From contig NC_014158.1 of the NCBI RefSeq assembly GCF_000092225.1, positions 558,001-622,000 of the forward strand: a DNA stretch of 64,000 bases, given 5' to 3'. Below the pieces are notes generated by a model. That model saw only the letters and a list, made by a program, of their open reading frames with translations. It made no database searches and was not told the origin of the DNA. A program made the translations under genes and the position numbers. The stretch is from Tsukamurella paurometabola DSM 20162. Its GTDB lineage: Bacteria; Actinomycetota; Actinomycetes; Mycobacteriales; Mycobacteriaceae. Numbering within the stretch: position 1 is the stretch's first letter; every line of letters begins with the position of its first letter. This document shows, one piece after another, positions 18,991-22,653 of the stretch.

Positions 18991-19464
18991 ATGACCGACG
19001 ACGAACGGGCGGAGCGGATCGAGGACCTGGTCCGCGTGATCGCCGACCTCACCCGGTTGAAGGAGCGACACGCCGCGATGACCCGGCATGCCGTCGCGCC
19101 CGACGGTGTGGAGCTGGCCGCGTACTCGGCACTGTTCGCCCTGGTGAAGGACGGGCCCATGCGCTCCTCGGTGCTCGCGGAGCAGATCCACACCGACCCG
19201 TCCACGGCGAGCCGGTACGTGACCACCCTGACCAACCAGGGCTACGCCGAACGCACCCCCGATCCGTCCGACCGCCGCGCGGCTCTCGTCGCCGCGACCC
19301 AGGCCGGCCGCGACAAGGTGGCGTTCATCCGCGAACAGCGCAACATCCGGCTGCGCCCGCTCCTGCAGGAGTGGAGCGACGAGGAGATCGAGCAGTTCGT
19401 GAAACTGGGCAGCCGTGCCCTCGACCAGTTCGAGCAGGCCCTGCGGCTGCTCCGGGAGGATTAG
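18991..19464 (+). CDS. MarR-family regulator
   Basis: 157 residues with the MarR winged helix: FALVKDGPMRSSVLAEQIHTDPSTASRYVTTLTNQGYAERTPDPSDRRAALV (about residues 51-102), the wing DxSDRRA being diagnostic. ATG 18991 has GGAGG 13 bases upstream (18969-18973) and GGAGGCGAG closer. Its TAG immediately precedes the ATG of the MFS-TGT fusion gene, so it is cotranscribed with, and very likely regulates, that gene. GTAGTT occurs twice, 23 bases apart (18919 and 18935 area), in the promoter region and may be part of its operator. Confidence 0.87.
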   Translation: MTDDERAERIEDLVRVIADLTRLKERHAAMTRHAVAPDGVELAAYSALFALVKDGPMRSSVLAEQIHTDPSTASRYVTTLTNQGYAERTPDPSDRRAALVAATQAGRDKVAFIREQRNIRLRPLLQEWSDEEIEQFVKLGSRALDQFEQALRLLRED

Positions 19465-22400
19465 ATGACGGCGACGACGCTGGAGAACCAATCACCCGAG
19501 CAGGCCGCCGGCGTGCCGAGCGGACCACTGACGCATAAGCAGATCCTCTACATCCTCGCCGGACTCATGACCGGCATGTTCCTGGCAGCACTGGACCAGA
19601 CCATCGTCTCGACGGCGATCCGGACCATCGCCGACGATCTCAGCGGCTACCAGTTGCAGGTCTGGGTGACCACGGCGTACCTGATCACGTCGACCATCGT
19701 GACGCCGCTCTACGGCAAGCTCTCCGACATCTACGGACGCAAGCCGTTCTTCATGTTCGCGATCACGGTCTTCGTGCTCGGGTCACTGCTGTGCAGCTTC
19801 TCCACATCGATGTACGAGCTGGCCGCGTTCCGCGCCGTCCAGGGACTCGGCGCCGGCGGCTTGATGTCGTTGGCGCTCACCATCGTCGGCGATATCGTGC
19901 CGCCGCGCGAACGCGCCCGCTACCAGGGCTACTTCCTCGCGGTGTTCGGCACCAGCTCGGTGCTCGGCCCCGTTCTGGGCGGCGTCTTCTCCGGCGCCGA
20001 CAGCATCCTGGGTATCACCGGCTGGCGCTGGGTGTTCCTGGTGAACGTGCCGATCGGCGTGATTGCGCTGCTCGTGGTGTATCGCGTCCTTCAGCTGCCG
20101 CACACCCGCCGCGAGGGGGTGCGGATCGACTGGGTGGGCGCCTTCATGCTCGCCGTCGGCATCGTGCCGTTGCTGATCGTGGCCGAGCAGGGCCGCGAAT
20201 GGGGTTGGGGCTCGACCAAGTCCATCACCTGCTACGCCGTCGGGGCAGGTGGCGTGCTCGCGTTCATCATCATCGAGAAGATGATGGGCGAGGACGCGAT
20301 CATCCCGCTGCGCATCTTCAGGAACCGGATCTTCGCGCAGGGCGTGCTGATCTCGGTGGTGGTGGGCGCTGCGATGTTCGGCGGGATCTCGCTACTGCCG
20401 CAGTACTTCCAGGTGGTGCGCGGTGCCAGCCCGACGGTGGCCGGTTTCATGATGCTGCCCATGGTGCTGGGACTGATGATGGGCTCGATCCTGGCCGGCC
20501 AGATGATCTCCCGCACGGGGCGCTACCGGATCTACCCGATCATCGGAGCCGTGCTGCTCACCGTGGGCATGTGGGCGCTGCACTACGTGACCGCCGATGT
20601 GCGCCTCGCGGCCGTGATGGCGGGCGCCGCACTCATCGGCTTCGGTCTCGGCAATCTGATGCAGCCGTTGACCCTGGCGATGCAGAACATCCTTCCGCCC
20701 CAGGACATGGGCGTCTCCACCGCCGCCGCCACCTTCTTCCGCCAGATCGGCGGCACACTCGGCGTCGCCGTCTTCCTCTCCGTGCTCTTCTCGGAGATGC
20801 CGAAGAACATGCAGTCGCGACTGACCGATGCCGCGGCTGATCCCGACTACACGGCAGCACTCCAGCGCGCCGCCGCGGGCCACGACGGCCAGGCCGCGCA
20901 GGAGTTCGCGAACAAGCTCGCCGCGCGCGATTCGAGTGCCGTGAGCGGGATCATGTCCGATACCTCGGCCCTGCAGAAGCTCCCGTCGACCCTGGTTCAC
21001 CCGTTCAAGGCCGGCTTCGCCGACTCGATGGACACCGTCTTCCTGGCGGTCACGGTGCTCTCCGCGATCGGTCTGCTCCTGGTGCTGTTCTGGAAGTCGG
21101 TGCCGCTGCGTACCGCACCCGCCATGGAGACGATTGAGGAGGAGGTCGTCGGCGCCGTGCTCGCCGGTGGCCCCGTTGCCGAGCCCGAACCCGCCGCCGC
21201 GGCGGATACGGCGCCCGTCTCCCCGGCTCCCGTCGGCGCCCACCCACCCGGGACGACCGGTGTCGGCACCGCATCGCGCGCGGTCGCGAGGCAGACACGG
21301 GCGCCCGGGCCGCGTACCGTCGAACCCGTGCCGCCCGACGACGACCGCACCGCACCCGTCCGTGTCGATCCGGCGCTCGCCGAGATCGCCGAACTGCGCA
21401 GCCAGAACGCGGAGCTCGCCGCGGAGCTCGCCGAACTGCGCACCGGATACCGCGCGATCGCCGGCCACACCCGGCTGCGTGCCGTCGGCGCCTCCGATCC
21501 CACCGGATTCCGGATCGAGGTGCAGGGCCCGGGCGCCGCGCGCACCGGCACGTTGAGCACCCCGCACGGCGAGATCGCCACGCCCGCCTACCTGCCCGTC
21601 GCCGCTCGTGGCGCCGTTGCCGGCATCACCCCCGAGATGCTCGCCGCGCTCGGTGTGCAGGCCGTCACCGTCGATCTGCACGAGCTGTACCTGCAACCCG
21701 GCACCGCGATGATCGAGGGTGCCGGCGGGATCGGTCGGGCCATGGCGTGGGCCGGTCCGGTCCTCGGCGACACCGGCATCACCGCCGTCGCCGCCGCGAA
21801 GAAGACCCGGGTCACCGACGAGGGCATCGCCTTCCGTAGCCGCCTCGACGGCGGTGCGCATCGCTGGGACCCCGAGGAAGCGGTGCGCGTCGCGCACCGG
21901 ATCGGCGTCGATATCGCGTTCGCCATGGCCGATCCGGTTGCCGCCACCGCACCCCGTGCCCAGCTGGAGGCCGGCGTCAACCGCAGCCAGCAGTGGGCGG
22001 CCCGTGCGCTGGTCGAACACTCGTGGCAGACCGCCGACCGCGGTGACCGGCAGTCCCTGTGGGCCGTCGTCACCGGTGGCGCCGATGCCGGGCTGCGCCG
22101 CGCCGCGGCGCGAGGCCTGCGTCGCCTGTCCGAACAGGATGTGCAGTCGGGCGGGCTCGGGTTCGGCGGCTACCGCATCGATGGAGTGCGGTCGGCGGCG
22201 GCGGAAGCTCTGCAATTGCGTGCTGCCACCGAGGAACTCGACCGGGAACGGCCACGACACCTCGCCACCGTCGCCACCCCCGCGGACCTGTTCGCAGCCA
22301 TCGAGGCCGGTATCGACCTGTTCGACGGAACCGCTGCGGCGGAGGCGGGCCGGGAAGGTCGCGTCTTCACCCGTGACGGTGTCCTGGACCTCACGGACCC

Positions 22401-22653
22401 CCAGCTGCGTGCCGACTTCCGGCCGATCGACCCCGGCGCAGATCGTCGCGGCCCCGCCAACCCGGCCGACGAGTTCACTCGGGCGTACGTCAATCATCTG
22501 TTCGCCGCGAACGAGGGCCTGGCAGTCACGCTGTGCACCCTGCACAACGAGCACTTCTTCGCGACCCTCGCGGCGGACGCCCGGCGTGCACTGACGGACG
22601 GCCGGTACCCGGCCTTCACCGAATCCTTCCTGCGGCGCTTCGCTAAGGTCTAA
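19465..22653 (+). CDS. fusion protein: DHA2 (14-TM) MFS transporter + degenerate tRNA-guanine transglycosylase domain
   Basis: One uninterrupted 1062-residue frame. Residues ~25-550 are an EmrB/QacA-type proton-coupled exporter (LDQTIVSTAIRTIADDL, GKLSDIYGRKP, RAVQGLGAGGL). A Pro/Ala/Thr linker (~555-640) and a short coiled coil (IAELRSQNAELAAELAEL) lead to a TGT barrel from ~682: TPHGEIATPAYLPV, HELYLQPG, FRSRLDGGAHRWDPEEAVR, RPIDP, FTRAYVNHLFAANE, TLHNEHFF. The two catalytic aspartates align with Asp769 (GDTG, normally TDSGG) and Asp954 (LFDG, normally FDCVLPTR), but neighbouring motifs are altered and the three zinc cysteines (CxCxxC, ~990-1000) are absent; only His1027 remains. Base exchange on tRNA is therefore doubtful. 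Controlled with the MarR gene one base upstream. Confidence 0.85.
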   Translation: MTATTLENQSPEQAAGVPSGPLTHKQILYILAGLMTGMFLAALDQTIVSTAIRTIADDLSGYQLQVWVTTAYLITSTIVTPLYGKLSDIYGRKPFFMFAITVFVLGSLLCSFSTSMYELAAFRAVQGLGAGGLMSLALTIVGDIVPPRERARYQGYFLAVFGTSSVLGPVLGGVFSGADSILGITGWRWVFLVNVPIGVIALLVVYRVLQLPHTRREGVRIDWVGAFMLAVGIVPLLIVAEQGREWGWGSTKSITCYAVGAGGVLAFIIIEKMMGEDAIIPLRIFRNRIFAQGVLISVVVGAAMFGGISLLPQYFQVVRGASPTVAGFMMLPMVLGLMMGSILAGQMISRTGRYRIYPIIGAVLLTVGMWALHYVTADVRLAAVMAGAALIGFGLGNLMQPLTLAMQNILPPQDMGVSTAAATFFRQIGGTLGVAVFLSVLFSEMPKNMQSRLTDAAADPDYTAALQRAAAGHDGQAAQEFANKLAARDSSAVSGIMSDTSALQKLPSTLVHPFKAGFADSMDTVFLAVTVLSAIGLLLVLFWKSVPLRTAPAMETIEEEVVGAVLAGGPVAEPEPAAAADTAPVSPAPVGAHPPGTTGVGTASRAVARQTRAPGPRTVEPVPPDDDRTAPVRVDPALAEIAELRSQNAELAAELAELRTGYRAIAGHTRLRAVGASDPTGFRIEVQGPGAARTGTLSTPHGEIATPAYLPVAARGAVAGITPEMLAALGVQAVTVDLHELYLQPGTAMIEGAGGIGRAMAWAGPVLGDTGITAVAAAKKTRVTDEGIAFRSRLDGGAHRWDPEEAVRVAHRIGVDIAFAMADPVAATAPRAQLEAGVNRSQQWAARALVEHSWQTADRGDRQSLWAVVTGGADAGLRRAAARGLRRLSEQDVQSGGLGFGGYRIDGVRSAAAEALQLRAATEELDRERPRHLATVATPADLFAAIEAGIDLFDGTAAAEAGREGRVFTRDGVLDLTDPQLRADFRPIDPGADRRGPANPADEFTRAYVNHLFAANEGLAVTLCTLHNEHFFATLAADARRALTDGRYPAFTESFLRRFAKV

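Follow-up and report, generated by a model that had tools for sequence, protein, structure and literature searches.

A coil-TGT module on an MFS exporter and on other transporters of Tsukamurella, with a possible role in assembly or docking

Why should a transporter of drug-exporter type end in a tRNA-guanine transglycosylase (TGT) barrel? The question is raised by a gene of Tsukamurella paurometabola DSM 20162 that lies in the stretch of DNA analysed here (the window; 64,000 nucleotides, contig NC_014158.1, positions 558,001 to 622,000 of the forward strand) and that joins a DHA2-type exporter of the major facilitator superfamily (MFS) to a TGT barrel by way of a linker and a coil. The MFS-TGT fusion itself is not new and is already in print. 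We report here that coil and barrel form a module found on at least five transporter types among 16 Tsukamurella genomes (two MMPL and three MFS), and that the base pocket of the window barrel has been altered in a way that would fit a changed role. The parts of the gene, in window coordinates, are:

19465..22653, + strand: complete MFS-linker-coil-TGT fusion gene, ATG start, 1062 codons plus stop
19465..21135, + strand: DHA2-type MFS exporter part, placed by Pfam, NCBIfam and hydropathy
21136..21378, + strand: Pro/Ala-rich linker, weakly constrained (median ratio of nonsynonymous to synonymous substitution rates, dN/dS, 0.596 from 72 pairs)
21379..21510, + strand: 44-residue coil segment common to the transporter-TGT fusions of the genus, with four heptads and Asn at one a position, then TRL...DP
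21511..22650, + strand: TGT barrel; D102, D280 and H349 kept, base pocket altered by D156A, Q203T and the lack of an aromatic at 106

The original prediction, made from this DNA alone, had described a single uninterrupted frame of 1062 codons, and the absence of any internal stop bears this out. Pfam places MFS_1 at residues 34-433 of the fusion protein (172.6 bits), and the MFS part scores 277.3 bits against the DHA2 exporter model TIGR00711, above its cut-off of 230.2; the best-scoring NCBIfam models are OtrB and Tcr3, both far under their cut-offs, and a simple hydropathy script gives 13 hydrophobic windows where 14 helices had been predicted. Compared with the DHA2 exporters nearest to it by score, the window protein adds the C-terminal linker, the coil and the TGT barrel. 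The coil that had been expected between exporter and TGT occupies residues 639-682, and the barrel behind it is full-length, with PF01702 matching residues 692-1060 over profile positions 3-356 of 357 (272.9 bits in the whole protein, 276.8 bits for the TGT part alone). The Tgt equivalog model TIGR00430 reaches 227.7 bits in the whole protein and 231.6 bits in the TGT part, under its cut-off of 306.75.

A frameshift or assembly artefact at the junction of MFS and TGT can be ruled out, as orthologues of the fusion occur in 15 of the 16 Tsukamurella genomes and 14 of these 15 hold both parts in one uninterrupted frame, which also settles the matter of an unbroken junction in related genomes. The exception is genome G009 (83% complete), where the MMPL-TGT gene is short-framed as well; both short frames (L082, MFS-TGT, and L103, MMPL-TGT) are likely to reflect assembly indels. 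Among the 13 orthologues compared there is no start-like codon common to all between the MFS part and the coil, and the sole start-like codon common to 13/13, M760, lies inside the barrel. A GTG column in the linker is present in 10/13 orthologues and absent from the window gene; separate translation of the TGT part is unlikely.

The fusion does not stand alone. Class A, an MMPL transporter with a motif-intact TGT, has its TGT in 16/16 genomes and its MMPL in the same frame in 14, the exceptions being the short frame in G009 and a copy in G011 that runs off its contig. The window gene belongs to class B, with an OtrB-like MFS; this class comprises the orthologues described above (15/16 genomes, one frame in 14). 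Class C carries a second MMPL: of its TGTs, found in 8/16 genomes, 7 share a frame with the MMPL (one partial) and the eighth is cut off by a contig edge; in the class C copies (L095-L102) the PF01702 match is split in two pieces. Other MFS-TGT fusions, whose existence had been raised as a question, are represented by class D (LfrA/QepA-like MFS, L083, genome G006) and class E (EmrB-like MFS, L093, genome G010), each in one genome. The labels LfrA, QepA and OtrB denote the nearest models by score, under their cut-offs. A probable second member of class E, L230, is a frame with 11 membrane-like windows whose last part, the coil, reaches a contig edge. As for a separate canonical tgt elsewhere in the window genome, a more canonical TGT is indeed present (384 bits), but it too is fused: an MMPL transporter precedes it in a single frame of 1424 residues.

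All Tsukamurella TGT copies fall on one side of a 100/100 branch that separates them from 36 free-standing TGTs of other genera of the family, with L093 and class C on long branches that join weakly (48/12). At 8 of the 36 loci, in six other genera (L148, L149, L151, L153, L157, L161, L162 and L175), tgt is immediately preceded on its own strand by an MMPL gene; at the remaining 28 the MMPL is farther upstream in 4, on the opposite strand in 2, and not seen within the stretch in 22. Because the two genes are direct neighbours in other genera, class A probably arose by the joining of MMPL and tgt. In a quick tree with long branches flagged, the class A MMPL falls among the tgt-linked MMPLs and the class C MMPL forms a separate deep branch; solved relatives of the class A MMPL are MmpL3, MmpL5 and MmpL4.

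A search of genome contigs with the window TGT part returned 16 distant TGT loci at 27-36% identity. Four long TGT frames of other genera (G178, 1066 residues; G288, 879; G106, 735; G041, 712) were considered as further fusions and rejected, having no membrane-like window and, by eye, an upstream Arg-rich text that is out of frame. Among the family tgt frames listed from other genera, 0/36 have three or more membrane-like windows. The distribution of TGT itself is patchy: 19/301 genomes gave no TGT match, 12 of them in genus g30, other members of which do have one.

What the fused copies have in common is most evident in the coil. The 44-residue segment stands before the barrel in every class from A to E, and its residues 1-28 form four heptads in 40 copies, with a mean hydropathy of 2.26 at the a and d positions against 0.35 in the next register. 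Asn occupies one a position in 40/40, and two g-e' charge pairs recur: E(g2) in 38/40 with R(e7) in 39/40, and E(g16) in 39/40 with R(e21) in 40/40. In parallel two-stranded coils, an Asn in the core and g-e' pairs are standard signatures. Searching with the coil gave 41 strong matches (77 bits or more) across 16/16 Tsukamurella genomes, 40 of them within TGT-bearing frames and the last where a contig ends. In 385 genomes of other genera, with the best 18 candidates per genome scored, the coil gave one fragment of 26 bits (G162) only.

The barrel is where the classes part. Residues are numbered here as in the Z. mobilis TGT, and class B counts come from 14 copies, with L083 and L078 shown apart. 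Set against bacterial Tgt (Z. mobilis, PDB 1enu and others), the window barrel is 31% identical over 350 positions and keeps D102, D280 and H349, but lacks the aromatic at 106, D156, Q203 and the zinc cysteines. The catalytic Asp pair, D769 and D954 of the fusion protein (residue numbers counted by hand), was correctly said to be kept: D102, D280 and H349 are found in 14/14 class B copies. Equally correct was the claim that the motifs around the pair are altered, with D156A, Q203T or A, N70D, S103T, C281G and K52A in all 14. In none of the 14 copies is D102-T-G followed by an aromatic residue (F, Y or W) in the next 8 positions, and the loss of the stacking residue 106 therefore holds under either alignment; residues 105-107 fall in a gap in the MAFFT alignment and are partly substituted in the HMMER alignment. 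The free-standing family TGTs keep 102-107 (with F at 106), D156 and Q203 in 36/36. D156 and Q203 are residues whose roles we take to be in base binding; the reference chain in the MAFFT alignment, from a crystallised variant, has Ala at 156, and the other chain, in the HMMER alignment, has Asp there. The roles of D102, D280 and Y106 in TGT are treated in PMC6165067. On these residues we infer that the class B barrel is probably not a working tRNA-guanine transglycosylase.

Could the kept Asp pair instead serve a new enzyme that exchanges a base, or cleaves a glycoside, in a small molecule bound for export? The presence of D102 and D280 in every class B copy and in L083 (class D) speaks for such an activity, but other copies of the module have lost one member of the pair (E102 in L078, N102 in L093, E280 in 7/8 class C copies), and no aromatic remains at 106; we regard this explanation as improbable.

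The missing zinc site deserves separate mention, since it had been read as a sign of degeneracy. The observation itself stands, in that the three cysteines (CxCxxC) are absent from the window barrel and the His is kept, but the interpretation does not: the cysteines are also absent from the class A MMPL-fused TGT, the catalytic motifs of which are intact, and from 14 of the 36 free-standing family TGTs (L147, L148, L150 and L152-L162), which have the DSGGFQ, FDE and DTFDC motifs. The loss therefore probably predates the fusion, and these free-standing proteins are possibly zinc-free TGTs. As the zinc domain is counted as a TGT hallmark (PMC6165067), motif-intact TGTs without zinc cysteines offer a testable point of their own.

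Constraint differs among the parts of the gene. In class B, from 13 orthologues (L083, L078 and the frame-broken L082 left out), median dN/dS is 0.164 for the MFS part (78 pairs), 0.116 for the coil (77 pairs) and 0.207 for the barrel (78 pairs), with the linker at the higher value listed above. The coil is under tighter constraint than the barrel in class A (0.044 against 0.084, 12 copies) and class C (0.095 against 0.329, 8 copies) as in class B; classes D and E have too few copies for a selection test. A decaying TGT domain is ruled out by this purifying selection, seen in each of the three classes A, B and C. It also counts against the notion of a passenger, by which the fusion arose through loss of a stop codon, was kept because it was harmless and is now drifting. 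Such a history would agree with the weakening of constraint on the barrel in the order A, B, C, and with the adjoining MMPL and tgt genes of other genera, but the same coil-TGT unit would hardly be expected on so many different transporters, and we consider it very improbable.

A sensor is the strongest rival to the explanation that we prefer, though an unlikely one. The altered barrel would bind another cytosolic ligand, either purine-like or an export substrate, and gate the exporter. Its purifying selection, a fixed consensus of its own, which departs from that of the family in 63 of the 165 columns invariant in class B, and its place behind an exporter with a MarR regulator would all suit a sensor; the pocket residues, however, differ among classes B, C and E, which sit on different transporters, and the coil is the more constant part.

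Because the coil and the barrel scaffold, rather than the active site, are common to the copies, we prefer to see the module as a shared assembly or docking part, and not as a queuosine-precursor importer or a working TGT; we hold this view tentatively, at a little under an even chance. A DHA2-type exporter would carry a portable coil-TGT module on the cytosolic side, judging by the usual topology. Class A, in which the TGT still looks active, would be the enzyme, and classes B to E its non-catalytic companions. Coils that have the same register, the same core Asn and the same two g-e' pairs could pair with themselves and with one another, and pairing would bring transporters together, possibly around the class A MMPL protein. 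In a bolder and rather doubtful version, a tRNA-modifying enzyme would have become, within this one genus, a portable and membrane-tethered oligomerisation module: the coil-TGT tails would use one coil code to gather drug-type MFS exporters and MMPL proteins into mixed assemblies around the single TGT still modifying tRNA, which might link export to translation or to the supply of queuine. The helix at 326-345, in which class B keeps 14/20 residues of the family consensus, is one half of the TGT dimer interface.

Several observations weigh against a role in assembly or docking. A purely structural role does not require D102 and D280, which are nevertheless kept in all 14 class B copies. In the other half of the dimer interface, the loop-helix 46-62, class B keeps only 2/17 family residues, and F92, part of the dimer hot spot F92/W326/Y330/H333 given in PMC5395182, is Ala in 14/14 class B copies; with this half of the interface changed, dimerisation of the TGT type is not clearly supported. 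Class C keeps only 7/20 residues in helix 326-345. The third possible g-e' pair of the coil (g9, e14) is mostly Gln-Ala and uncharged. The dN/dS values are crude pairwise Nei-Gojobori estimates, which for the coil come from 44 codons only. Finally, with 18 candidates scored per genome, the absence of the coil from other genera is not absolute.

A parallel for an assembly role is offered by eukaryotic TGT, whose active subunit QTRT1 is paired with a non-catalytic one, QTRT2, and the logic of class B beside class A may be likened to it. The likeness lies in an altered-site TGT paralogue next to an intact one in the same cell, and in the change of D280 to Glu that PMC6165067 describes for QTRT2 and that recurs in class C. 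There are also differences. According to the same source QTRT2 retains the zinc domain but carries Cys at the position of D102, whereas class B has both Asp residues, no zinc cysteines and an exporter fused to it, and its pairing is proposed here from sequence. Should the class B barrel be unable to hold the base, the coil-TGT tail shared by different transporter families would make it possible to test whether an RNA-modifying enzyme has been recruited for transporter assembly or sensing.

These fusions have been read in another way. Quaiyum et al. (2024; PMC11130926) name two fusions, the MFS-TGT protein Tpau_0550 and the MMPL-TGT protein Tpau_4044, and treat both as candidate queuosine-precursor transporters; we infer that the window gene is Tpau_0550 of the T. 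paurometabola type strain. The original prediction, which knew of no described example, is corrected on this point. Its idea of a membrane-tethered TGT-like domain in a changed role has fared better: we keep this as the best reading of the sequence, though not as the new combination it was held to be. The words paralog, degenerate, zinc and coiled do not occur in the main text of PMC11130926, and in the parts consulted we met no description of the pocket loss, the shared coil or the further fusion types; in the open-licence PMC literature we found no other description of Tpau_0550.

On the reading of PMC11130926, the MFS part would import queuine or preQ1 and pass it on to the TGT behind it. 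A transporter-TGT fusion suits this, and such fusions have served in print as association evidence for queuosine-precursor transport. The tested set in its Table 1 comprises a Bartonella MFS, which was shown to transport preQ0/preQ1, and a Corynebacterium MMPL, and includes neither Tpau_0550 nor Tpau_4044. MMPL was among the candidates found via clustering with queuosine salvage genes, but the C. propinquum protein failed to complement, with expression problems left possible by the authors.

The genomic context is in part favourable to such transport. QueA was found in 0/16 Tsukamurella genomes (control 9/14), and QPTR, a known family of queuosine-precursor importers, is a separate gene in 16/16; on these two counts the genus seems to salvage queuosine precursors, with a dedicated importer. 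A search for QueC matched in 15/16 genomes at 20.7-22.4 bits, 14 of them formally over the cut-off of 22, but the matches cover only positions 5-60 of 210 and lie inside frames of 656-1255 residues, and we read them as another protein. The Qng1 search found nothing in the 16 Tsukamurella genomes and is uninformative, since no control genome matched either. Probable salvage would give an importer a use, and the separate QPTR in every genome argues against the fusion being that importer, as do the loss of base-binding residues in class B, the placement of the MFS part in the DHA2 exporter subfamily and the unfused MFS orthologues in genomes that gave no TGT match, described below. We therefore find queuosine-precursor transport by this protein distinctly unlikely, and the published inference for Tpau_0550 weakens if its barrel is indeed unable to hold the base.

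Immediately upstream of the fusion gene lies one further feature:

18991..19464, + strand: MarR-family regulator (Pfam MarR, 42.1 bits)

The MarR partner had been noted before, at a distance of one base; in fact its TAG stop abuts the ATG of the fusion, with 0 bases between. Among the 114 genomes sampled from other genera, 66 hold full-length unfused relatives of the MFS part, with 53-69% identity (67 rows; best 11 candidates per genome scored). The 23 that were read in detail (L205-L227) end 6-83 residues past the MFS match, and a search of their loci for the coil gave nothing above 4 bits. A MarR relative adjoins the MFS gene at 23/23 of these loci and at 15/15 class B loci. Four genomes (G026, G032, G042 and G057) have the unfused MFS relative and no TGT match, so that the exporter and its regulator need not depend on a TGT.

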